Source of the DNA: a virus
IMG/VR virus record: IMGVR_UViG_3300033146_001765
Location: 1-42,932 of that record
Length of the DNA stretch: 42,932 bases
Direction: 5' to 3' (one strand)
The translations under genes were made by a program, and so were the position numbers. Positions 3,121 to 31,520 of this stretch are shown here, one piece after another; positions within the stretch are counted from its first letter, which is position 1, and every line of letters begins with the position of its first letter. Below the pieces are notes generated by a model that did no database searches, had not been told where the DNA came from, and saw nothing but the letters and a program-made list of their open reading frames with translations.

Positions 3121-4259
3121 GGAGAGCGCGTCCGATAGATCCTTGATAGATCCTTCGCGACCTGCGCTTCCGCCTTCTGCTTCGCTACCTCGGTCACTCT
3201 GCGCTGGTGCTCGTCCCGCTCAGCCTGCCAATTTTCCGCAGCTGCGACGTATCGTACCTGATCGGTGCGGATCCCTGCGAGACGTCCGGCCTCCGCGAGC
3301 GAGCTAGCCTCGCCCATGACGTAGGCACGTCGAGCGGTCTCTCGCTTCACTGGGTCTATGGCCTTGTTCCCTGCGCCGGTCGTGACCTCGGCCTTGGCGC
3401 TCCTCGAGGACGACAGGTCGCGGATCGCGTAGGGCTCGCCGAGGACGGGGATCGAGGTGATGACGTGCTTGTGGAACTCCTCGACCCTCTCGCCGTCGTG
3501 CCATGGACCCAGCGGAACACCGGCCCTGAGGAACCGCTCGCCGTACCCGCGCACGTCCTCGGCGTGCTTATATTGACGGTGATACGCAGGCGAGCACACC
3601 TTGACGTGTTGGACCTTCGCAGCCTTGAGCACGTCGTGGGGCGCGTTGCCTAGGGCGACCCATTTAGTGTCCGGCCCAAAGGCCTTCGCGAGTTGGGCGA
3701 GTTCTCGGGTGTATCGCTTCCCTCGGACGCTGCGCCCGTTGCAGAGGTAGATCGAGAGCTCGTCATATCCAAGCGCCCGCAGCGCGAGGAAGAGCCACGT
3801 CCCGGCCTTGGAGGCAAAAGGTAGCTGGCCAAAGCGTTTGCACTGGTCCCCAACGAGAACGAGCTGAGGCCTCGGCGAGCCGTAGCCAATGCCAATCCGC
3901 CGGACCGTCGAGAGAGCCGGCCAGCAGTGCTCACGAGCTTCAGCGAAGTTTCCGTCCTGGGCAGCGACGAACCAGCCAGCAGCCTCTAGGCGGGCCCTTA
4001 TGGACGCCTCACGCACCCCTACGGCTACAGGCCCCGTGCTTGCTGCGATTAAACGCCTTACCAAAGAAGCACCCCACTGCTGACCAGACCTCGGGTCCGG
4101 CTCGGCGAGCAGATCGCAGACGTTCAGCGTGTTAACTAGGTGCCTGCCCGCATTCGCTACCTTCAAGCGGTTGTCGTAGGTCGGCAGCGCGTCGTCGTAG
4201 AGCGTGAGCGGAGGCATTTCATGGGGCCGAATGTCGTGCCGGGTGTCGCCGGTGCTCAC
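3030..4259 (-). CDS. UDG-like domain fused to terminase-small-subunit-like HTH; truncated by frameshift
   Basis: GTG start overlapping the upstream stop (GTGA). Residues about 120-245 look like the uracil-DNA-glycosylase superfamily: a VGDQ turn (136-139), PFASKAGTWLFLALRALGY (147-165) like the family's PF-x-G-x-AG helix, a strand ending CNG, then WVALG (200-204) and the SPAYH loop (223-227) like the HPS motif. Residues about 305-352 form an HTH ending in a W-x-x-(E/Q)R pattern, as in phage small terminase subunits. Catalysis is uncertain: the acidic residue would be D138 and the histidine H227. After residue about 371 the frame is broken by an 11-bp duplication, so the last 40 or so residues (Arg/Ser-rich) are out-of-frame sequence. 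The gene lies upstream of the large terminase on the same strand, which fits a TerS role. The UDG assignment is pattern-based and moderate. Confidence 0.65.
   Translation of the reverse strand: MSTGDTRHDIRPHEMPPLTLYDDALPTYDNRLKVANAGRHLVNTLNVCDLLAEPDPRSGQQWGASLVRRLIAASTGPVAVGVREASIRARLEAAGWFVAAQDGNFAEAREHCWPALSTVRRIGIGYGSPRPQLVLVGDQCKRFGQLPFASKAGTWLFLALRALGYDELSIYLCNGRSVRGKRYTRELAQLAKAFGPDTKWVALGNAPHDVLKAAKVQHVKVCSPAYHRQYKHAEDVRGYGERFLRAGVPLGPWHDGERVEEFHKHVITSIPVLGEPYAIRDLSSSRSAKAEVTTGAGNKAIDPVKRETARRAYVMGEASSLAEAGRLAGIRTDQVRYVAAAENWQAERDEHQRRVTEVAKQKAEAQVAKDLSRIYRTRSPWPGARRNSGSRTSSSGCSLLEASRPRSRS
3134..3155. repeat. 11-bp perfect tandem duplication causing a frameshift
   Basis: GATAGATCCTT occurs twice in a row (3134-3144 and 3145-3155). 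The gene span 2824-4259 is 1,436 bp, not a multiple of three; minus 11 it is 1,425 bp, exactly 475 codons. The duplication therefore splits the UDG-like/HTH gene. It may be a real slippage mutation or an assembly or read error. Confidence 0.9.
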
Positions 4260-4450
4260 GCAGGATCCCCAGCCGTGATAATCGAGGTGTCGCCATAGAG
4301 GGTGATCTCCTCCTGCGAAGTCTCGTCGATCGCTGCGAGGTGGAGCTCAAGCGCGACGATCTGCTTGTTGATCGCTTTCACGTCGCAGCGCAGCCGGTGG
4401 ATCTTGTCGGTCGTCCTCTGTCGCGCGAAATGCCTATCGTCGTGATTCAT
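4256..4450 (-). CDS. small coiled-coil protein (64 aa)
   Basis: ATG start overlapping the stop of the RHH gene (ATGA), and its stop overlaps the GTG of the next gene. A heptad-like helix (about residues 16-45, with Leu/Ile/Val at regular spacing) suggests a coiled coil. The C-terminal 15 residues are polar. It is the second gene after the RHH regulator and upstream of the TerS-like gene. I do not recognise the family; a small packaging or regulatory partner is possible. Confidence 0.6.
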   Translation of the reverse strand: MNHDDRHFARQRTTDKIHRLRCDVKAINKQIVALELHLAAIDETSQEEITLYGDTSIITAGDPA

Positions 4451-4665
4451 GCCAGAGCCTTCCCGTCGTTGTGATCGGTGCGAATGTCCTCGAGGTAGAG
4501 GTCGACGGCCTTGCGCAAAAACGAGGTGAGGGTCGGGATCTCCTCCTCGGCCTTGAATCTAATGATCGCGACCTGAACCTCGTCGAAGGCCTGGAGGTCG
4601 AGTCGGACGCCTACGACTCTAGTCAGCCCGTTGTCCCGCGCGCCGCCAGCTTGCTTTGCTCTCAT
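4447..4665 (-). CDS. ribbon-helix-helix DNA-binding protein
   Basis: A 72-residue protein with the RHH layout: a basic N-terminal arm, a strand (TRVVGVRL), helix A (about residues 24-39, DLQAFDEVQVAIIRFK) and helix B (SFLRKAVDLYLEDI). Such proteins dimerise through the strand and bind short direct repeats in promoters. It is the first gene of the lower left transcription unit. Two TTGCAG direct repeats 11 bp apart lie just upstream (4684-4700), inside its own predicted promoter, so autoregulation is a good hypothesis. It may set the timing of the packaging and late genes that follow. No paired toxin is recognised nearby. Confidence 0.75.
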   Translation of the reverse strand: MRAKQAGGARDNGLTRVVGVRLDLQAFDEVQVAIIRFKAEEEIPTLTSFLRKAVDLYLEDIRTDHNDGKALA

Positions 4666-4671
4666 ACTTCC

Positions 4672-4700
4672 ACGTTAACGGATCTGCAACAATCCTGCAA
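4672..4700 (-). promoter_or_regulatory. predicted promoter TTGCAG-N17-TAACGT with TTGCAG direct repeats
   Basis: On the minus strand TTGCAG (4695-4700) is followed by exactly 17 bases, then TAACGT (4672-4677), then six bases, then the ATG of the RHH gene. This geometry is identical to the promoter at 9797-9825. Transcription would begin at or within a base or two of the ATG, so the message may be leaderless. A second TTGCAG at 4684-4689 lies in the spacer, 11 bp from the first, and is a likely operator. Confidence 0.6.
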
Positions 4701-4890
4701 CACTGTGAGCAATTTGGTATATAGGCCAAAAACCGGCCACTGGCCCGGAGTTGAGCGCGTAAACGGGCACTGCTTCGCGAAGTGGAGACGGCGCAGTAGC
4801 AGGGGAGGGCGTCTGTTTCTTAGTCCTAGGCGCTGGGGCGAGGTGCCCGACCGGCGACCCTAGGCGGGATCGCCGTGCAGCGTTGAGGCG
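4701..4890. other. noncoding gap between primase stop and promoter
   Basis: About 190 bases without a convincing gene. On the minus strand it contains a TATATA box-like stretch (around 4719-4724), a 10-bp palindrome CTTCGCGAAG (near 4773-4782) and a GGCC-rich inverted repeat flanking five T residues (near 4723-4745). The last could act as a weak terminator for the primase unit. No tRNA fold was found here. Confidence 0.4.
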
Positions 4891-6948
4891 TCAGCCGTAG
4901 CGTGCCGCTAGGCCCTGGCTGCTCCTGCGTTCGTAGACGAAGTCAGCACGGGAGAGGACGCGAGGCGTGAATCCCAGATCGTAGCTTTGGACGAGCTCGA
5001 GGTATCGAGCGATCGAAACAGGGTGGCTCGAGATAGCGAGCGGGACGCCGTCGGGGGCTAGGGTCTCGTATCCGCCGACCTCCTCGAGCACCTCGCCGGA
5101 CTCCTCGCGGGCCTTGATCGCGAGGCCTTTGACGTGCTCCTGGCCCTCCGTCGTCGTCGCGAACCGTGGCGCGTTGGTCCCATTCCATACCCAGCGGGTC
5201 TTCTCGCGGTCAGCGAGGCGTGCTGCGACGTCGTCCGCCGTCCCTGCCCAGGTCCCAGAGTGAGAGGTCTCGATCGCTTCGAGCAGGAATGCTACGGCCT
5301 CGGCGCCCTTGAGGGTGTGCAGCGTCGCGCCGGCCTTGACGTGCTCTAGGCTGTCCCCTGCGTCGAGGATCCCCTCGTCGTAGCTGTAGAGCAGGGTTAA
5401 CGGCTTCCCTTTGCTGTCGTAGCCTCTGTGGACGCTTGCGCCGAGCAGGACCTCCTCGGTCTCGTAGGACCCTGGGATCATGCGCAGGATCGAGCGGTCG
5501 ACCTTCGAGCGGGTGTAATTCCAGGGGAAGCGCACGAAGTGGACCTCGCGCGTCTCGTCCTCTAGCAGAACCTTCGTCGCTTCGATCCGCTTCGCCATGC
5601 AGCGCGAGCAGTAGATCCGGTCACAGCTCGCGCGGTAAGCCCACAGCGTGTCCTGGGTCTCCGCGCCGAAGACCTCGCCGATCTTGCGCCCGCAGACGCA
5701 AGCCCTCGTGACCTGCTTGAACAGATCCTTCGACCCGGCGTCCTCTGCTGCAACCTGCAGTCCCCGCATATCGCGCGGCGTCCCGCGAGCGAGGCGCACC
5801 GGGTCGAGTTCGACCTCGGGGGCCACCTCCGCAGTCAGCGCGTTCAGCGCGATCTGGAAGGCCCGCACGGCTTTGGGGTCGCCGAACTTGCAGACCGTCC
5901 CGAACGTGATCCTTGTTGCGACGTGGCTGGATCGCTCGTAGAGCCTCGAGATATTCCCCTGGTCCGCGTAGCCAATGATCTGCAGGACCTTCTCTAGAGG
6001 CATTCCCTTATCGTTAACGAGGTAGTCAGTCAGCCCCATGCGGAACTCAGCGCGACGGTCGTGGCCCTCCCAGATCGCGCGCGCGGCCTTGCGGACGGGT
6101 GCGAGGTTCGCGTCCGTGTAGGCGATCGGGTCGACGTTCTCGAGGGTCCTGCGCGGAGCCCTGTGCTTCTGCTTGACGATCGGGACCTCGACGCCCGAGA
6201 CGTCCCAGACCGCCTGCTCATACTCCTGCTCGACGATCTCGACGGGTCGCCCGCTCGCGTGGAGGGATCCGGGGAGCCGCTTGAGTTGGTGGGGCCTGAA
6301 CCCAGCCGGATCGAACTTGATCGGGAAGACCCCGTTCCGCCAGACGCTCTGCGGGAACGTCGCCTTAACCTCGTCGAAGAGCCTCAGCCCCTCGAGCTCG
6401 CATTGCGCCTTGAGCCCCTCAAAGCTACTGGCCTGCGTCCTGAGGTGCAGTTGGTAGTTCCCAGAGCCCGTCGCGACCAGCCGACCGGCCTTGACCCTGT
6501 GGTAGAGCCTCGTCGCGAACGTCGTCGCTATCTCCCTGTAGGCCTTCGATCCCGTGTCGCCCCATGCCTCGTCGTCGTCGAGGTCGAAGAACAGGACCAT
6601 TCCGTCGGTCTCGTCAGCGTCCGCGAGCAGCGGCGCGCGCGAGCTCGCGTCCATGAACTTGGGCTGGCCCGAGGGGTCGCGCTGGAACCGCAGGGTCCGA
6701 AAGACGAGCGACTGAGCCCCGTTAACGTCAATCAAGGCTTGGGCTAGCCGCTCCGGTGCCCCCTCGCCCTTCCTGTTGACCTGCGTCATATAGGTCGAGT
6801 GGTCGCCTGGGTAGACCATAGCGGTCACCCAGTGCCCAGACCCGTCGAGGCCGCACCACCGGAGGTGCTCGGCCATGGTCGCTGCGTTGGCTTTTAGCAC
6901 TTGACCCGAACCGGGCCGTTTACTAGGATTTGGGGGTCGTGAGGTCAT
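4891..6948 (-). CDS. AEP-type primase/polymerase (PrimPol-like) with Cys cluster
   Basis: A 685-residue protein with the three archaeo-eukaryotic primase motifs in order: the metal-binding FFDLDDD at about 121-126, SGNYQLHL near 162-169, and RLPGSLH at about 224-230. A cysteine cluster (C417, C419, C442, C447, C450) follows and is probably a zinc site. The C-terminal 230 residues are unassigned and show no Walker motifs, so there is no fused helicase; an SNF2-like helicase lies upstream in the same operon. It should synthesise primers and perhaps longer DNA. No other DNA polymerase is seen in the genome. I chose the ATG at 6946-6948; a TTG at 6990 would add 14 residues. A tRNA gene lies just upstream. 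Confidence 0.82.
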   Translation of the reverse strand: MTSRPPNPSKRPGSGQVLKANAATMAEHLRWCGLDGSGHWVTAMVYPGDHSTYMTQVNRKGEGAPERLAQALIDVNGAQSLVFRTLRFQRDPSGQPKFMDASSRAPLLADADETDGMVLFFDLDDDEAWGDTGSKAYREIATTFATRLYHRVKAGRLVATGSGNYQLHLRTQASSFEGLKAQCELEGLRLFDEVKATFPQSVWRNGVFPIKFDPAGFRPHQLKRLPGSLHASGRPVEIVEQEYEQAVWDVSGVEVPIVKQKHRAPRRTLENVDPIAYTDANLAPVRKAARAIWEGHDRRAEFRMGLTDYLVNDKGMPLEKVLQIIGYADQGNISRLYERSSHVATRITFGTVCKFGDPKAVRAFQIALNALTAEVAPEVELDPVRLARGTPRDMRGLQVAAEDAGSKDLFKQVTRACVCGRKIGEVFGAETQDTLWAYRASCDRIYCSRCMAKRIEATKVLLEDETREVHFVRFPWNYTRSKVDRSILRMIPGSYETEEVLLGASVHRGYDSKGKPLTLLYSYDEGILDAGDSLEHVKAGATLHTLKGAEAVAFLLEAIETSHSGTWAGTADDVAARLADREKTRWVWNGTNAPRFATTTEGQEHVKGLAIKAREESGEVLEEVGGYETLAPDGVPLAISSHPVSIARYLELVQSYDLGFTPRVLSRADFVYERRSSQGLAARYG

Positions 6949-7066
6949 GGGCGTACGCTGCCTGTTGAGTTCGCTGAACAGGGCCGGCAAGCCCTACTGA
7001 GCGACGAGAGAAGGCGCCACGGGAAACCGAGGCGTCTTTCTTCTTTGGTTCAGACGTGTTCTTCAA

Positions 7067-7137
7067 TAGCGCTGCGGGGAGGCGAACCCCGTTCTCTGGC
7101 TTATGAGACCAGCGACTTACCCTTTGTCCTCAGCGCG
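7067..7137 (-). tRNA. tRNA-Met-like (anticodon CAT), atypical
   Basis: The minus strand folds into a full 71-nt cloverleaf. It has a 7-bp acceptor (first pair C-T mismatched), a 3-bp D stem with a 9-nt loop containing GGG, a 5-bp anticodon stem with loop CTCATAA (T33, anticodon CAT, A37), a 4-nt variable loop, and a 5-bp T stem with loop TTCGCCT. The discriminator is A and CCA is not encoded. Position 8 is A rather than U, and T-loop position 58 is C rather than A. The anticodon stem lacks the three G-C pairs of initiators, so elongator Met, or Ile if C34 is modified to lysidine, is more likely. Confidence 0.7.
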
Positions 7138-7150
7138 TCGACCAGTGACC

Positions 7151-7549
7151 CTAGACTATCTCGGGGCTCGAGGGAAGAGGTTTTTTTGCCCTCGCGCAGT
7201 GCCCGCAGGCGCGACGCGGCCACTGACTAGCGCCCGTGCTTGATTGGTGCGCTTCTCCTAGCGACGCGACGACGGTGCGCCCACAGGCTGCTACCAGAGC
7301 GACCCTGGTCTGCAGGACCCCACGCCGGCCTCCGATCTCTACGATCGTGTGGGACACCTTTGCCTCCCACGACGCGAGCTCGAAAGGCGGCTTGAGCGCG
7401 TTGTGCTGGTTCGTTAACTCGGCCGGAACCCTCGCTCGCTGCTCGGCGAAGACGGCCTCTCGCAGGGCGAGGAGTTCGTCGTCCGCGAGTTGCGAGAGGC
7501 CGCCCGAGGTCAGCGCCCGGAAGCCGCGACGGGCGTCGAGGTCGGTCAC
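7151..7549 (-). CDS. unknown early protein (132 aa)
   Basis: GTG start overlapping the upstream stop (GTGA at 7546-7549). The N-terminal 45 residues are helical (LSQLADDELLALREAVFAEQ) and the middle looks strand-rich (VSHTIVEIGG, then LQTRVALVAACG). The C-terminal 30 residues include CGHC and are basic and low in hydrophobic residues. The gene ends 13 bases before the tRNA 5' end, so tRNA and mRNA are probably processed from one transcript. The family is not recognised. Confidence 0.55.
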   Translation of the reverse strand: MTDLDARRGFRALTSGGLSQLADDELLALREAVFAEQRARVPAELTNQHNALKPPFELASWEAKVSHTIVEIGGRRGVLQTRVALVAACGRTVVASLGEAHQSSTGASQWPRRACGHCARAKKPLPSSPEIV

Positions 7550-7779
7550 CTAGCGTCCCCGTATTGCTCCATGAGATCGTCTATGCACTCCTTGACGCTG
7601 TCGAGCTTCATGTCGGTCTCGTCAACGGCTTCGATCGCCTCCTGAACGTCGAGCCAGACCTCGCACGCGAAGCACCCGCCTGCCGCGCCCGTTTCGCACG
7701 TGTTTGCGCACAGCTTCTCGCACTTGGTCTTGATCGCTTCAAGCTGAATCCTTAGATCGGGCTCTGCTTTGATCGTCAC
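7546..7779 (-). CDS. small acidic Cys-containing protein (77 aa)
   Basis: GTG start overlapping the helicase C-terminal frame (GTGA). The protein is acidic, with cysteines at about residues 19, 23, 27, 36 and 39 in the stretch CEKLCANTCE and CFAC, suggesting a small metal site or disulfide core. Helical segments flank it. It is one of a series of small Cys-rich proteins in the genome. No family is recognised. Confidence 0.6.
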   Translation of the reverse strand: MTIKAEPDLRIQLEAIKTKCEKLCANTCETGAAGGCFACEVWLDVQEAIEAVDETDMKLDSVKECIDDLMEQYGDAR

Positions 7780-8300
7780 TGCTGCCCCCTCGATAAGCTG
7801 TTGATCATTCGTGTCTTCCTAGCGTTTACACGCGCAACGTATTTGTCCACCTCGTGATCAGCGACGAGGCTCGTCACGAGACAGCCTCGGGTCTGGCCGC
7901 GCCTGTGGATCCTCTTGAGCGCCTGCGTGTTCGCCTCGGGGGTCCAGTCCCGATCGACGAAGAGCAGGAGCCTGCCCCGAGTGAGCGTGATCCCCTCGCT
8001 CGAGCCGCGGATCGTCCCGGAGACCCCCGCGAGCTCGCCGGCCTGGAACCTCGAGATAGTCCCCGTCCTCTTCGACGCGTTCCGCAGCGACACCCAGCCC
8101 GGCAGCCCCGCGAGGGCCTCGACCGGGGCGACGTGAGCAGAGAACGCGACGAGCGGCTCTTGTGCCTCGGCGCACTCCTGCGCGTACGCGAGCGCCGCGG
8201 GGATCTTCGCTAGGGCCAGCGCCTTGCGGAGCGTCGCGAGTTGGGGAGCAATGTCTGCCCAATCGCTCGTCGTGAGGACCGCCTCGAGCAGCTCCTGCAC
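7776..8300 (-). CDS. SNF2-like helicase, C-terminal RecA domain (separate frame)
   Basis: This frame carries the second half of a superfamily 2 helicase of the SNF2/SMARCAL1 type. The strand PLVAFSAH (about 49-56) corresponds to motif IV, SSEGITLT (100-107) to motif V, and QALKRIHRRGQ (126-136) to motif VI with its arginine fingers. The first half is the preceding gene, 8308-9369. Its own start would be the GTG at 8300, after a GAGG 3 bases away, 7 bases past the upstream TGA. The total span 7776-9369 is one base over a multiple of three. Either a 1-nt insertion or sequence error split one 530-residue helicase, or the two halves are made by re-initiation. The conserved linker helix (DEDVQELLEAVL) reads through upstream of the GTG, favouring one original protein. 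Confidence 0.8.
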   Translation of the reverse strand: MQELLEAVLTTSDWADIAPQLATLRKALALAKIPAALAYAQECAEAQEPLVAFSAHVAPVEALAGLPGWVSLRNASKRTGTISRFQAGELAGVSGTIRGSSEGITLTRGRLLLFVDRDWTPEANTQALKRIHRRGQTRGCLVTSLVADHEVDKYVARVNARKTRMINSLSRGQQ

Positions 8301-8307
8301 GTCCTCG

Positions 8308-9369
8308 TCAGTGCTCCTGCGCGACGCGCCGAGCGGCCAAGGCCTGGGATAGCGCCGCCTCGATCACTGCACGGGACTCGCGCGAGATCGGCACAATCCT
8401 CTCGTCGAAGCGTAACTCTGGCAACTGGAGCCCGACGACCTCCGCGGTCCTCCCCATTTCGACGCGGGCCCGCCGGTCTTCGAACACCTTCTCGATATGC
8501 TCTGGGGCCTGCTGCCAGTCGTCGTAGAACTTGGTCAGCGCGTTGAATTCGTCGATCCCGCCCGGGAAGGCAGCAGCGGCGAGCCCGAGGACCCTGTAGA
8601 GCGCCCAGAGTTCCCGCGGGTGGTTGAGGATCGGCGACGCAGAGAGCCCCCAGACCCGAGTCGCACCGGCAGCGAGCCAGCGGAAGCGCTTCGTCCGCGT
8701 CGCGCTCAGTGTCTTTAGCTTGTGGCACTCGTCAGCGATCAGCACGGTCCCAGGGAGCAGGCCGAGGACCTCAGCGACCTCTGCGGGATCAGGGACCGGA
8801 CAGCGGAAGGCGTCGCAGAGACAGTCGATCTCTTTGCACCCTTCGCTCTTGTTGTGGCGTGGGCCTGGGTGGGAGCACTCGGAGCAGTCGGAGAGGATCG
8901 GCGGGAGGATCGCGTAGTTGAGAATCACGGCCTCGTCGGGTCCTGGGGCCCGCCAGCCGTTGCGGCCGGTCAGAATTCGAGGCCTGAGCTTCGCGCCCCA
9001 GGTCGTAATCTCGCGATACCAGACCGCCTTGACCTGGCTGGGGCAGACGATCACAACCGGCGTCCCTGGCTCGAGCGCGAGAATGGCCTGAGCGGTCTTG
9101 CCGAGGCCCATGTGGTCGGAGAGGAGCGCGGCCCACCGCGAGCCTAGGAAGTTCGCGCCGGTCAGTTGGTAGGGCGATACGGTCCAGTCTCCGTAAGGGA
9201 GCGCGCAGCGAGCGACGACGTCCCCGAGGGGAGCGGTCGTGAGAGCGCAGCGAGCGCAGAGGACGTGGTCGGACCTCCAATAACCCTTCCGCGCAGCGAC
9301 GCGAGCGCCGCATGGGCACGTAGAGGGGATCGCGTTGCGGCGGTGGGGGATCATACAGACTCGGATCAT
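8308..9369 (-). CDS. SNF2-like helicase, N-terminal ATPase domain with Cys-rich insert
   Basis: A 353-residue frame with the first helicase lobe: Walker A MGLGKT (87-92), motif Ia-like strand VVIVCP (105-110), motif II DECH (213-216, in place of the usual DEAH/DEGH) and motif III GLSASP (241-246). An N-terminal zinc ribbon (C18, C20, C38, C41) precedes it. An unusual insert between motifs Ia and II contains six cysteines (C162, C165, C178, C183, C185, C190). It is ATP-dependent DNA-translocase machinery, probably for replication or fork remodelling with the primase. The ATG overlaps the upstream stop (ATGA). The frame ends just after PISRESRAVIEAAL, where the family continues into lobe 2; that lobe is found in the next frame. 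Confidence 0.85.
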   Translation of the reverse strand: MIRVCMIPHRRNAIPSTCPCGARVAARKGYWRSDHVLCARCALTTAPLGDVVARCALPYGDWTVSPYQLTGANFLGSRWAALLSDHMGLGKTAQAILALEPGTPVVIVCPSQVKAVWYREITTWGAKLRPRILTGRNGWRAPGPDEAVILNYAILPPILSDCSECSHPGPRHNKSEGCKEIDCLCDAFRCPVPDPAEVAEVLGLLPGTVLIADECHKLKTLSATRTKRFRWLAAGATRVWGLSASPILNHPRELWALYRVLGLAAAAFPGGIDEFNALTKFYDDWQQAPEHIEKVFEDRRARVEMGRTAEVVGLQLPELRFDERIVPISRESRAVIEAALSQALAARRVAQEH

Positions 9370-9557
9370 CGGTTGCGTTCGTCATGGTCGGTCTCCTCGG
9401 TGTTCGGTGTGAGGAGAGGCCGCACGGCCTTGGCGAGTTCTTCCTGCCGCTTGGCGAGGAGAGAGAGCGCGCGCCGCAGGTCCTCGCGGACGATCTTGAC
9501 TGCCTCCTTGGCTGCTATCACCTCTACGAGTATCCGTCGGTGCTCTTCAAGCGTCAT
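9366..9557 (-). CDS. small helical protein (63 aa)
   Basis: I chose the ATG at 9555-9557, which overlaps the upstream stop (ATGA); a longer version would overlap the upstream gene by 76 bases. Most of the protein is one long charged helix (residues 1-47, EEHRRILVEVIAAKEAVK onwards) with a coiled-coil look, then an acidic tail. Its stop overlaps the helicase ATG. The function is unknown; a helicase-associated role is only suggested by position. Confidence 0.6.
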   Translation of the reverse strand: MTLEEHRRILVEVIAAKEAVKIVREDLRRALSLLAKRQEELAKAVRPLLTPNTEETDHDERNR

Positions 9558-9790
9558 GCGTATTGCTCCAGGTTGAGCGCGAGGGTTGAGACAGGGCAGG
9601 CGCGATCGCGCACGAGGTAGGCCCGGCACTCGGCCTTGGTGCCGACGACGTGGATCCGGTCGACGCGACGGAGGAAGCGGACGTCTACAATGTCGTGAAG
9701 GCCCTCGGTGCAGTTGACGACCGCGAAGTCGCCATTCTTGCCGATCAGGGCTCCCCAGGCGAGTGAATGTATGTAGCGTTCGTTGCTCAT
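9554..9790 (-). CDS. first gene of the left early operon, unknown (78 aa)
   Basis: ATG at 9788-9790, six bases after the predicted -10 box of the left promoter. The protein alternates short strands (GDFAVVNC, HDIVDVRFLRRVDRIHVVG) and looks like a small beta-rich fold. There is no metal cluster or membrane span. As the first leftward gene it would be expressed immediately after infection, a common place for host-takeover or regulatory proteins. The family is not recognised. Confidence 0.6.
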   Translation of the reverse strand: MSNERYIHSLAWGALIGKNGDFAVVNCTEGLHDIVDVRFLRRVDRIHVVGTKAECRAYLVRDRACPVSTLALNLEQYA

Positions 9791-9796
9791 GCCCTC

Positions 9797-9825
9797 ACGT
9801 TAACACCCACCCACGACCCTCGCAA
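9797..9825 (-). promoter_or_regulatory. predicted left early promoter TTGCGA-N17-TAACGT
   Basis: On the minus strand TTGCGA (9820-9825) and TAACGT (9797-9802) are separated by exactly 17 bases, and the ATG of the first gene follows after six bases. The predicted start of transcription coincides with the ATG, as at 4672-4700. The shared core GTTAACGTG just before both starts could also be a protein-binding site. Confidence 0.6.
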
Positions 9826-9914
9826 GCGCTAACCGGGATCAGTGCCGTTGTATAGGTTTACGCACAATCGCTCCAGCCCTCGGATTTAGTAGTGGATTGT
9901 TAACGCGGGATCCG

Positions 9915-9920
9915 TATACT
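9915..9920 (+). promoter_or_regulatory. predicted -10 box (TATACT) of the right early operon
   Basis: CGTATACT lies 52 bases before the first rightward ATG. No good -35 hexamer is present at 16-18 bases upstream, so an activator may be needed. The same CGTATACT is found before the plus-strand gene at 31560, and GTATACT in the strong promoter at 16036-16064. A GTTAAC site at 9899-9904 lies in the -35/-10 spacer. Confidence 0.45.
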
Positions 9921-9971
9921 TGGGGGTGTAGACGAGACGCACGACGAACCCGAACACCGAGGAGACCGACA

Positions 9972-10229
9972 ATGACCAACGCTAGCACCTACCTGACGCG
10001 CTTCTTTAACGAAACGACCAAGGTCGATCACGACGACTTCTTCGAGGTCGACGTTGACGGGACCTGGAACCTCATGAGCTACGGCGTCGTCCTGGAGGCG
10101 CTCTTCGCAGCTAGCGAAGACGAGCAGCGACTCGCAGCGGACACGATTCGCAAGATCGACTTCATGGACGGAGACGTCTGCCACTTCCTCCGCCACCTCG
10201 GGGCCTGCATGGCAAGGCAGGCGGCATAA
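9972..10229 (+). CDS. first gene of the right operon, acidic unknown protein (85 aa)
   Basis: ATG at 9972 with AGGAG eight bases upstream; a further in-frame start upstream would lie in the promoter. The protein is acidic and mostly helical, beginning with TYLTRFFNETTK and having a short strand pair (FFEVDVDGTWNLMS) before helical EALFAASEDEQRLAAD. The stop overlaps the next ATG (TAATG). Its place as first gene suggests an early regulatory or host-directed role, but no family is recognised. Confidence 0.65.
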   Translation: MTNASTYLTRFFNETTKVDHDDFFEVDVDGTWNLMSYGVVLEALFAASEDEQRLAADTIRKIDFMDGDVCHFLRHLGACMARQAA

Positions 10230-14223: not shown

Positions 14224-14438
14224 GCGCCATGGGACGCGATCAGATCGAGGTCGGTGTGAACGTCGACGCCGTCGATCAGGCGGCCGACTACGCCGAGGTG
14301 ATCGCGTTCGTGATCCGTCAAGCCAAATGCAAGCCCTCCGTCGCCGAGGCGATCGTCGCAGAGGTCGCGGCGTGGCTCAACGCTAGCGAGGTCGCGGCGT
14401 GGCTCAACGCTAGCGAGTTGCAGAGGCGGGAGGCATGA
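14220..14438 (+). CDS. small acidic helical protein with internal 9-residue duplication
   Basis: ATG at 14220 in an ATGA overlap. The protein is acidic and mainly helical. It contains EVAAWLNAS twice in a row near its C-terminus, encoded by a 27-bp tandem repeat (14361-14414), so the duplication is in frame. The ancestral protein was probably 63 residues. Its stop overlaps the ATG of the next gene. The family is unknown; the recent duplication shows that length variation is tolerated there. Confidence 0.6.
   Translation: MSAMGRDQIEVGVNVDAVDQAADYAEVIAFVIRQAKCKPSVAEAIVAEVAAWLNASEVAAWLNASELQRREA
14361..14414. repeat. 27-bp perfect in-frame tandem duplication
   Basis: Copies at 14361-14387 and 14388-14414 are identical. 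Being 27 bp, the repeat adds nine residues to the small acidic protein without changing frame. It is the second recent-looking tandem duplication in this genome; the first, 11 bp at 3134-3155, is out of frame. Confidence 0.95.
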
Positions 14439-16035: not shown

Positions 16036-16064
16036 AGTATACAAACGATAACCGACCGCCTCAA
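16036..16064 (-). promoter_or_regulatory. strong sigma70-type promoter TTGAGG-N17-TATACT
   Basis: On the minus strand TTGAGG (16059-16064) is separated by exactly 17 bases from TATACT (16036-16041). It lies 38 bases before the ATG of the Lys/Ala-rich coiled-coil gene. It is the best match to the bacterial housekeeping promoter that I see in the window. Confidence 0.7.
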
Positions 16065-30195: not shown

Positions 30196-31482
30196 CTAGC
30201 TGCGGGACATTCCGCAGTAGGAGTCGGGGTCAGTGTTGATCGCGACGTAATCGTTGAAGTCGACGGGGGACTCGCTGCGTTTCCAGGACGCGTGAAGGTC
30301 GCGCGCACGGGAGAGGGCCTCGGGCCCCTGAGCCGCAAAGGCAGCGATCTCAGGTGCGTCGACGACGCCTCCGTCTCCGCCGGCCTGCTCGCCGGTCCAG
30401 TGTGAGGGGGGGTCGCTTGGGCCGACGCGCTGCATACCAGCGGCGTAGGCATTGGCGGCCTCGAGCCCGTGCTCAGAAGCGCGGGCGCGGAAAGCTTTAA
30501 CCTGATCGTCGTCAAATCCAGCGCTGGCGAGCTCGGCGGACTTCGAAGCAACCGCGCGCTCGGCCCTGAGGGAGTTGATCTCTTTTTCCATGTTCGCCAT
30601 ACGGGACTCCATGGCGGCATTTGCGCCGTCAGCCTCGTTCTTGGCCGTGTCGCCGACAGCGGTGGCGGGAGGAAGAACCGCAACGGGCGCAGTAAAGGCA
30701 GCGAGAGGGTGCGCCGGTGCTGCGGGTGCAGCAACGGGAGCGGGCTGTTCTGCAGGGACTGGGGCTGCTGGGGCCTCGGGCTCGCCTTCGCCCATGAACT
30801 GCTTCAGGAGCTGGAACATTTGCGCGAGGACTTGCTCTGCGCTAGCGGCCTTCTGCGTGGGGTTGGTCGCGGGCGCGCTTCCGGTCTTGGGCTCAGTCAC
30901 TGGTGTTGACTCCTGAAAGTTGAAGAGTGCACGCGACGCGTGGCCGCTTTGCGAGTAGGCGAGGACAGGGCCACCCTGCGCGAGGGTCACGCGGGCAGTG
31001 TCTGGGTGTTGACCATTCTGGTCAGCGACCCGGAGAAGCGGGAAGCGGAAGAATGGGGTCTCGTGATCGAGGAGGGCCAGGCTGTCAATTTCGGGCTTGT
31101 CGACGTCGAGGATCTCAACGGACCTATAGACCAGCTCGCCCTTGGCAATGCGCTCGAAGATCTCGGGCTTGACGTTCACGAGGTCAGCGAAGATCGTCTT
31201 GACCTTCTTGCCGTCGTGGACGACGTCGGCAACGTGGGTCATGCGGAACTGTCCGGCGCCCTTGACTTCAGATCCTGATCCGTGGTGAGACACGTGGAGA
31301 GGGGCCATGTATCCCTCGTCCTGGCGCTTGATCGCCTGCTTCACAGCCGAGCTCAACCAGCGGGCGTTGAACTCACGATCTCCACCGGACCGCTCCTCGA
31401 CGTGAGCCGAGAAGATAGGAACGCTAAAGATCGTGAAGTTGCCGTTAGGCTGCTCTTCGTGTCTGTAGATTGGAGGCGCCAT
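30196..31482 (-). CDS. Mu gpI-like capsid protease fused to scaffold domain
   Basis: A 428-residue protein. The N-terminal 165 residues match the Mu gpI-type head maturation protease: NFTIFSVPIFSAHVEE, then YMAPLHVSHHGSGSEV (about 58-73) with its two histidines, a strand segment KKVKTIFADLVNV and LVYRSVEIL. An Ala/Pro-rich linker (about 215-285) follows, then a charged coiled-coil scaffold (MANMEKEINSLRAERAVASK, about 296-315) and an acidic C-terminus. Protease cleavage removes the scaffold from the head. The catalytic serine and histidine are only inferred. A GTG or ATG choice is not in doubt; AGGGA sits directly before the ATG. Confidence 0.75.
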   Translation of the reverse strand: MAPPIYRHEEQPNGNFTIFSVPIFSAHVEERSGGDREFNARWLSSAVKQAIKRQDEGYMAPLHVSHHGSGSEVKGAGQFRMTHVADVVHDGKKVKTIFADLVNVKPEIFERIAKGELVYRSVEILDVDKPEIDSLALLDHETPFFRFPLLRVADQNGQHPDTARVTLAQGGPVLAYSQSGHASRALFNFQESTPVTEPKTGSAPATNPTQKAASAEQVLAQMFQLLKQFMGEGEPEAPAAPVPAEQPAPVAAPAAPAHPLAAFTAPVAVLPPATAVGDTAKNEADGANAAMESRMANMEKEINSLRAERAVASKSAELASAGFDDDQVKAFRARASEHGLEAANAYAAGMQRVGPSDPPSHWTGEQAGGDGGVVDAPEIAAFAAQGPEALSRARDLHASWKRSESPVDFNDYVAINTDPDSYCGMSRS

Positions 31483-31520
31483 TCCCTGGAAATTAGGGAT
31501 CTGCCGTCACCGGGTCAACG

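Follow-up and report, generated by a model that had tools for sequence, protein, structure and literature searches.

Probable leaderless early promoters and a putative regulator site, GTTAAC, across their -10 boxes in an uncultivated high-GC phage

Two leftward leaders of an uncultivated phage carry the same arrangement of promoter boxes running down to the start codon, which raises the question of whether the genes behind them are expressed from messages without a leader, and whether the bases that the two arrangements share also serve as the site of a regulator. The stretch of DNA in which we addressed this question, hereafter the window, is the IMG/VR virus record IMGVR_UViG_3300033146_001765, of 42,932 bases. 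The window begins and ends with the same 114 bases, and a relative (L004) reads across the join, from which we take the map to be complete and circularly closed, at about 42.8 kb. The phage encodes a terminase, a portal and a major head protein; an Erf-like annealing protein and a PD-(D/E)XK exonuclease are encoded rightwards, and a helicase of the SNF2 type leftwards. This helicase, which distantly resembles its counterparts in Gordonia and Microbacterium phages, is split over two frames of the minus strand (8308-9369 and 7776-8300, with the shift near 8300), which could reflect a programmed frameshift, overlapping genes or a sequencing error.

The initial annotation had described two layouts of the form TTGC(G/A)(A/G)-17-TAACGT-6-ATG, and both are indeed present on the minus strand where it had placed them (Table 1). 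We refer to them as PL, for which the ATG lies at 9790-9788 and follows TAACGT by the six bases GAGGGC, and P2, for which the ATG lies at 4665-4663 and follows by GGAAGT. The combination GTTAACGTG-N5-ATG occurs exactly twice, at these two places. Each ATG belongs to the gene that opens a transcription unit. As read from the sequence, no other start codon lies between it and the in-frame TAA within GTTAAC, 12 bases upstream. Compared by eye with the E. coli consensus, the hexamers are weak (7/12 for PL and 6/12 for P2), and a sigma-70 scan of the sequence listed neither promoter; the boxes retain the most conserved positions, TTG and TAnnnT. At P2 the choice of the -35 box carries the caveat that several copies of TTGC lie near that position. 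Directly upstream of the P2 -10 box, GTTGCAG occurs twice, 11 bp apart (4680-4705, minus strand), a possible second binding element. The terminator-like hairpin at 4728-4750, which separates the left operon from P2, is weak, with a z-score of -0.2, and no RNA structure was found around the P2 start.

Table 1 Coordinates in the window of the promoter elements, first genes and intragenic palindromes discussed in the text
Feature	Position	Strand	Remark
PL -35 box TTGCGA	9820-9825	minus	17 bases before TAACGT
PL GTTAACGTG	9796-9804	minus	-10 box TAACGT at 9797-9802, overlapped by GTTAAC palindrome at 9799-9804
P2 -35 box TTGCAG	4695-4700	minus	17 bases to TAACGT
P2 GTTAACGTG	4671-4679	minus	-10 box TAACGT at 4672-4677, overlapped by GTTAAC at 4674-4679
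PR GTTAACGCG	9899-9907	plus	upstream of PR -10 box; identical in L056, positions 8-16
PR -10 box TATACT	9915-9920	plus	CATACT in L056; then Shine-Dalgarno leader (GAGGAG) to ATG at 9972
Third leaderless-type promoter, -35 box TTGACC	31513-31518	minus	from relaxed layout search
Third leaderless-type promoter, -10 box TAATTT	31490-31495	minus	7 bases before ATG at 31482-31480
First left-operon gene, 78 aa, orphan	9554-9790	minus	4-bp ATGA overlap with next gene
P2 gene, 72 aa	4447-4665	minus	ATGA overlap with next gene; codon score 0.40 in frame
Intragenic GTTAAC	4131-4136	palindrome, strandless	left-operon gene
Intragenic GTTAAC	5396-5401	palindrome, strandless	left-operon gene
Intragenic GTTAAC	6013-6018	palindrome, strandless	left-operon gene
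Intragenic GTTAAC	6721-6726	palindrome, strandless	left-operon gene
Intragenic GTTAAC	7413-7418	palindrome, strandless	left-operon gene

The first left-operon gene has a codon score of 0.28 in frame, against -0.30 and -0.61 in the other frames; its protein gave no family or phage match and its structure model was uninformative. Since both this frame and that of the P2 gene show genome-like codon usage in frame only, and both overlap the next gene through ATGA, they are probably real genes, even though neither has known relatives.

Could two GC-rich leaders simply happen to share a 9-mer? The initial annotation had held that the shared core is unlikely to be due to chance, which for the 9-mer taken by itself was too strong: for 52 gene starts, about 31% of random position sets include a pair that agrees over nine bases at a single offset, and with a P of about 0.3 among all gene starts we dropped the argument from the shared 9-mer alone. 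The composite layout is a different matter. TTGnnn-17-TAnnnT-6-ATG is found twice in the genome, counting both strands, and only at PL and P2, where 0.02-0.03 occurrences are expected, and in none of 300 simulated genomes (150 from order-2 and 150 from order-3 Markov models) did it appear twice. The case therefore rests on this composite layout, together with the rarity and clustering of GTTAAC described below. As both copies precede the gene that opens a transcription unit, and the enrichment of GTTAAC is independent evidence, we regard a chance resemblance as very improbable.

The layout agrees with what is known of leaderless genes. In high-GC bacteria such genes are marked by TAnnnT about 6-7 bp before the open reading frame (PMC12340547, PMC3160421), and leaderless phage messages have long been known from lambda and from phage P2 (cited in PMC4633059). 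Here TAnnnT stands 6-7 bp before the start codon and TTG 17 bp from TAnnnT, within the expected 17 ± 1 bp, at PL, at P2 and at a third promoter described below. A well-placed Shine-Dalgarno sequence, which many other genes of this genome possess, is absent from the PL and P2 starts, where the purines before the ATG would form weak duplexes (-6.2 kcal/mol for GTGAGGG and -3.3 kcal/mol for GTGGAAG) and lie too close to it. As promoters of the host sigma-70 type, PL and P2 would place TAACGT six bases before the start codon, and RNA polymerase would start on the ATG or within about a base, giving leaderless messages that the ribosome would read from the 5' AUG. The start points and the mode of translation are thus predicted from the layout, and on this basis the PL and P2 early genes probably have messages without a leader.

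The same purines allow another interpretation, in which GTTAACGTG is an operator or a start-associated element, the true promoters lie further upstream, and the messages are leadered and translated through the purines before the ATG. Purine-rich bases do precede all three ATGs (GAGGG, GGAAG and AGGGA) and could be poorly spaced Shine-Dalgarno sequences, GTGAGGG and GTGGAAG resemble weak ones, and Cluster K mycobacteriophages carry Start-Associated Sequences 3-7 bp before their start codons (PMC3203893). The distance from such a sequence to the ATG would, however, be only about 1-2 bases; no better promoter is seen upstream, where TATACA or TATATA occurs without a -35 box, and it would be left unexplained why both leaders have TTG at a distance of exactly 17 bases. 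We consider this interpretation improbable. The Cluster K element is comparable in being a short repeat a few bases before start codons, but it has the sequence GGGATAGGAGCCC and adjoins the starts, whereas GTTAACGTG overlaps a -10 box and GTTAAC is also found inside genes.

A relaxed search returned one further case of the layout, TTGACC-17-TAATTT-7-ATG (31518-31480), preceding a late gene of 428 aa, which follows a gap of 360 bp. A relative with 70% protein identity in this gene (L005) has TTGACG-17-TAATTT-7-ATG, keeping 11 of the 12 box bases and six of the seven gap bases, with 6 of the 17 spacer bases identical. Conserved boxes and spacings around a diverged spacer fit selection on a promoter that ends at the start codon. 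Two more distant relatives (L006 and L007, 48% identity) show TGGACA-18-TACGGT-6-ATG at the aligned place. Conservation of the box spacing in related genomes, which the initial annotation had named as a test of its proposal, is thus seen at the promoter at 31518, and for PL and P2 no relative was found that covers them. In blastn against phages no phage record matched the region at the DNA level; tblastn of the left and late proteins returned distant helicase matches and no relative of the left leaders; scans of IMG/VR with the 661-aa, helicase and 409-aa proteins, as well as scans of genomes, gave no relative covering these leaders; and none of the relatives found covers 2.3-9.89 kb of the window. 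With its start-specific and non-random layout, the lack of a well-placed Shine-Dalgarno sequence and the conserved spacing at the third promoter, the earlier proposal of leaderless starts is well supported at the level of sequence.

The third promoter lacks GTTAAC, and TAACGT fits TAnnnT by itself. One could therefore suppose that only the leaderless promoters are meaningful, that the match in GTTAACGTG is a shared or duplicated -10 region, and that the other copies of GTTAAC have no regulatory role. Two observations argue against this, and leave it a possible but doubtful explanation: GTTAAC is in excess inside the left genes beyond coding need, and the copy at the divergent right promoter, PR, does not occupy the -10 position and is conserved in a relative.

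At PR, GTTAAC (9899) lies outside the -10 box, and it is conserved in L056, whose first 85 bases align at 92%. Because the PR copy is no -10 box, the element common to PL, P2 and PR is more than TAACGT. A pattern scan for the right promoter returned the known relative only, plus three unrelated chance matches. Elsewhere, at 16036-16064 on the minus strand, there is a conserved promoter with a Shine-Dalgarno leader, TTGAGG-17-TATACT; in L056 the counterpart is TTGGCT-18-TAGACT, whose spacer contains GTTAACG in place of the GTTATCG of the window. As GTTAACG is present in the L056 spacer only, we found this too thin and did not use it in support of GTTAAC. Around PR there is also an inverted repeat of 33 nt with 94% identity (9375-9407 and 9950-9982), corresponding to the Shine-Dalgarno leader and opening codons of the first gene in the right operon (CCGAACACCGAGGAGACCGACaATGACcAACGC); the minus-strand copy of CCGAACACCGAGGAGACCGACaATGACcAACGC lies at a possible start (9385) shortly ahead of the helicase gene and in a frame that differs from that of the helicase. 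A perfect tandem duplication of 27 nt (14361-14414) lies inside a right-operon gene.

GTTAAC occurs 10 times in the window against 2.7 expected, and 8 of the 10 copies fall within 5.8 kb (4131-9904). Among 423 six-mers of similar abundance it is the only one to cluster in this way, and none of 1,728 six-mers surpasses it in regional enrichment (P 4e-6). Synonymous shuffling, which holds the proteins and the codon usage fixed, predicts 0.66 copies inside the left-operon genes, where five are found (no shuffle in 2000 reached five); for the late genes the corresponding figures are 2.5 expected and one found. The flanks of the sites revealed no significant extended consensus (P 0.095), and since they add so little, a site of 6-8 bp is short for a specific regulator. 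Among other elements of this region, a tRNA at 7067-7137 (minus strand; 48 bits with Rfam, CAT anticodon by eye) was missed by ARAGORN, and a promoter-like TTGACC-17-TAGGAT (6901-6929, plus strand) occupies the gap separating the tRNA from the 661-aa gene, in antisense orientation to the left operon, and the TTGGGGGT that comes after it closely resembles the TGGGGGT downstream of the PR -10 box.

Clustering of this kind could in principle mark a function other than transcription, with GTTAAC serving as the target of the phage's own DNA methyltransferase or, in the left operon, for replication or partition. An N6/N4 methyltransferase whose N-terminus is ParB-like is indeed encoded at 232-1629, and the six successive sites from 4131 to 7413 are regularly spaced (543, 722, 617, 708 and 692 bp; post hoc P 0.0002). 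The regularity is nevertheless lost when all eight left-region sites are included (P 0.51), a methylase target need not cluster, and three of the sites lie in promoters; we give such a function a slim chance.

We therefore favour, with a probability of about 0.58, the combined reading that PL and P2 are leaderless promoters, of a form that recurs before the late gene at 31482, with their -10 boxes under a phage regulator's site, GTTAAC, most simply a repressor site. The clustering of GTTAAC, its intragenic excess and the PR copy conserved in L056 lend weight to the possible regulator site of the initial annotation, and GTTAAC is probably a regulator site overlapping the PL and P2 -10 boxes. 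The regulator itself and its repressing sign are presumed from the position of the sites. GTTAAC would form the core of its putative binding site. With the regulator in place at PL, P2 and PR, RNA polymerase would be blocked, and the copies inside genes may act by slowing elongation or by retaining the protein. A single palindrome does accompany the divergent early promoters and overlaps promoter elements (9799 at PL, 9899 at PR and 4674 at P2), as in an operator circuit. No lysogeny gene, such as an integrase, was recognised among the genes scanned, many of which gave no match at all.

A candidate for the regulator is the P2 product. It looks like a ribbon-helix-helix protein, with a VRLD strand followed by two helices; the low-confidence single-sequence model (pLDDT 60) places helices at 24-40 and 46-68 after an extended stretch, and no HMM match above the cut-off or significant fold match was obtained. 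One could speculate that this small protein, expressed from a leaderless promoter, governs the early left operon in a stoperator-like manner through GTTAAC at the PL and P2 -10 boxes, at PR and in coding sequence every ~0.5-0.7 kb, a scheme that we think unlikely as a whole.

Parts of the arrangement have known counterparts. The leaderless promoters of Actinobacteria and Deinococcus-Thermus, and the lambda and phage P2 messages, likewise have TAnnnT 6-7 bp from the start and a -35 box at 17 bp, and they have no Shine-Dalgarno sequence, where PL and P2 show at most weak, too-close purines (PMC12340547, PMC3160421, PMC4633059); here, in contrast, a palindrome common to two of the three predicted promoters covers their -10 boxes. 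The immunity region of mycobacteriophage BPs (gp33 repressor, OR and ORep) is similar in having palindromic sites at divergent promoters and more of them elsewhere in the genome; in PR its operator separates the -35 box from the -10 box, and at the divergent promoter the start site is overlapped by a related sequence (PMC4557955). In BPs, however, the half site of the operator, CGACATATGTCG, is palindromic and 12 bp long, the sites are intergenic and the repressor is known, whereas here the site is GTTAAC, five copies are intragenic and no integrase was recognised among the genes scanned. The stoperators of Cluster A phages (L5, TipsytheTRex), which are thought to block both initiation and elongation, are also many short sites, placed at early promoters and dispersed (PMC9283540). 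For the intragenic copies they offer the nearest idea, although they differ in two defining features: stoperators are 13-bp, asymmetric and oriented with transcription, whereas GTTAAC is a 6-bp palindrome without a significant asymmetric extended consensus, and stoperators lie mainly in short intergenic gaps, whereas five of the eight left-region sites are intragenic.

PL and P2 with their GTTAAC sites thus add a further case to familiar modes of turning genes on and off. They present a case, read from sequence, of an uncultivated high-GC phage whose early and late genes alike have predicted leaderless promoters, one of them backed by comparison with relatives, and of a dispersed palindromic site as a probable control element of an early operon. 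If GTTAAC is a regulator site, its copies within coding sequence would widen the stoperator idea.
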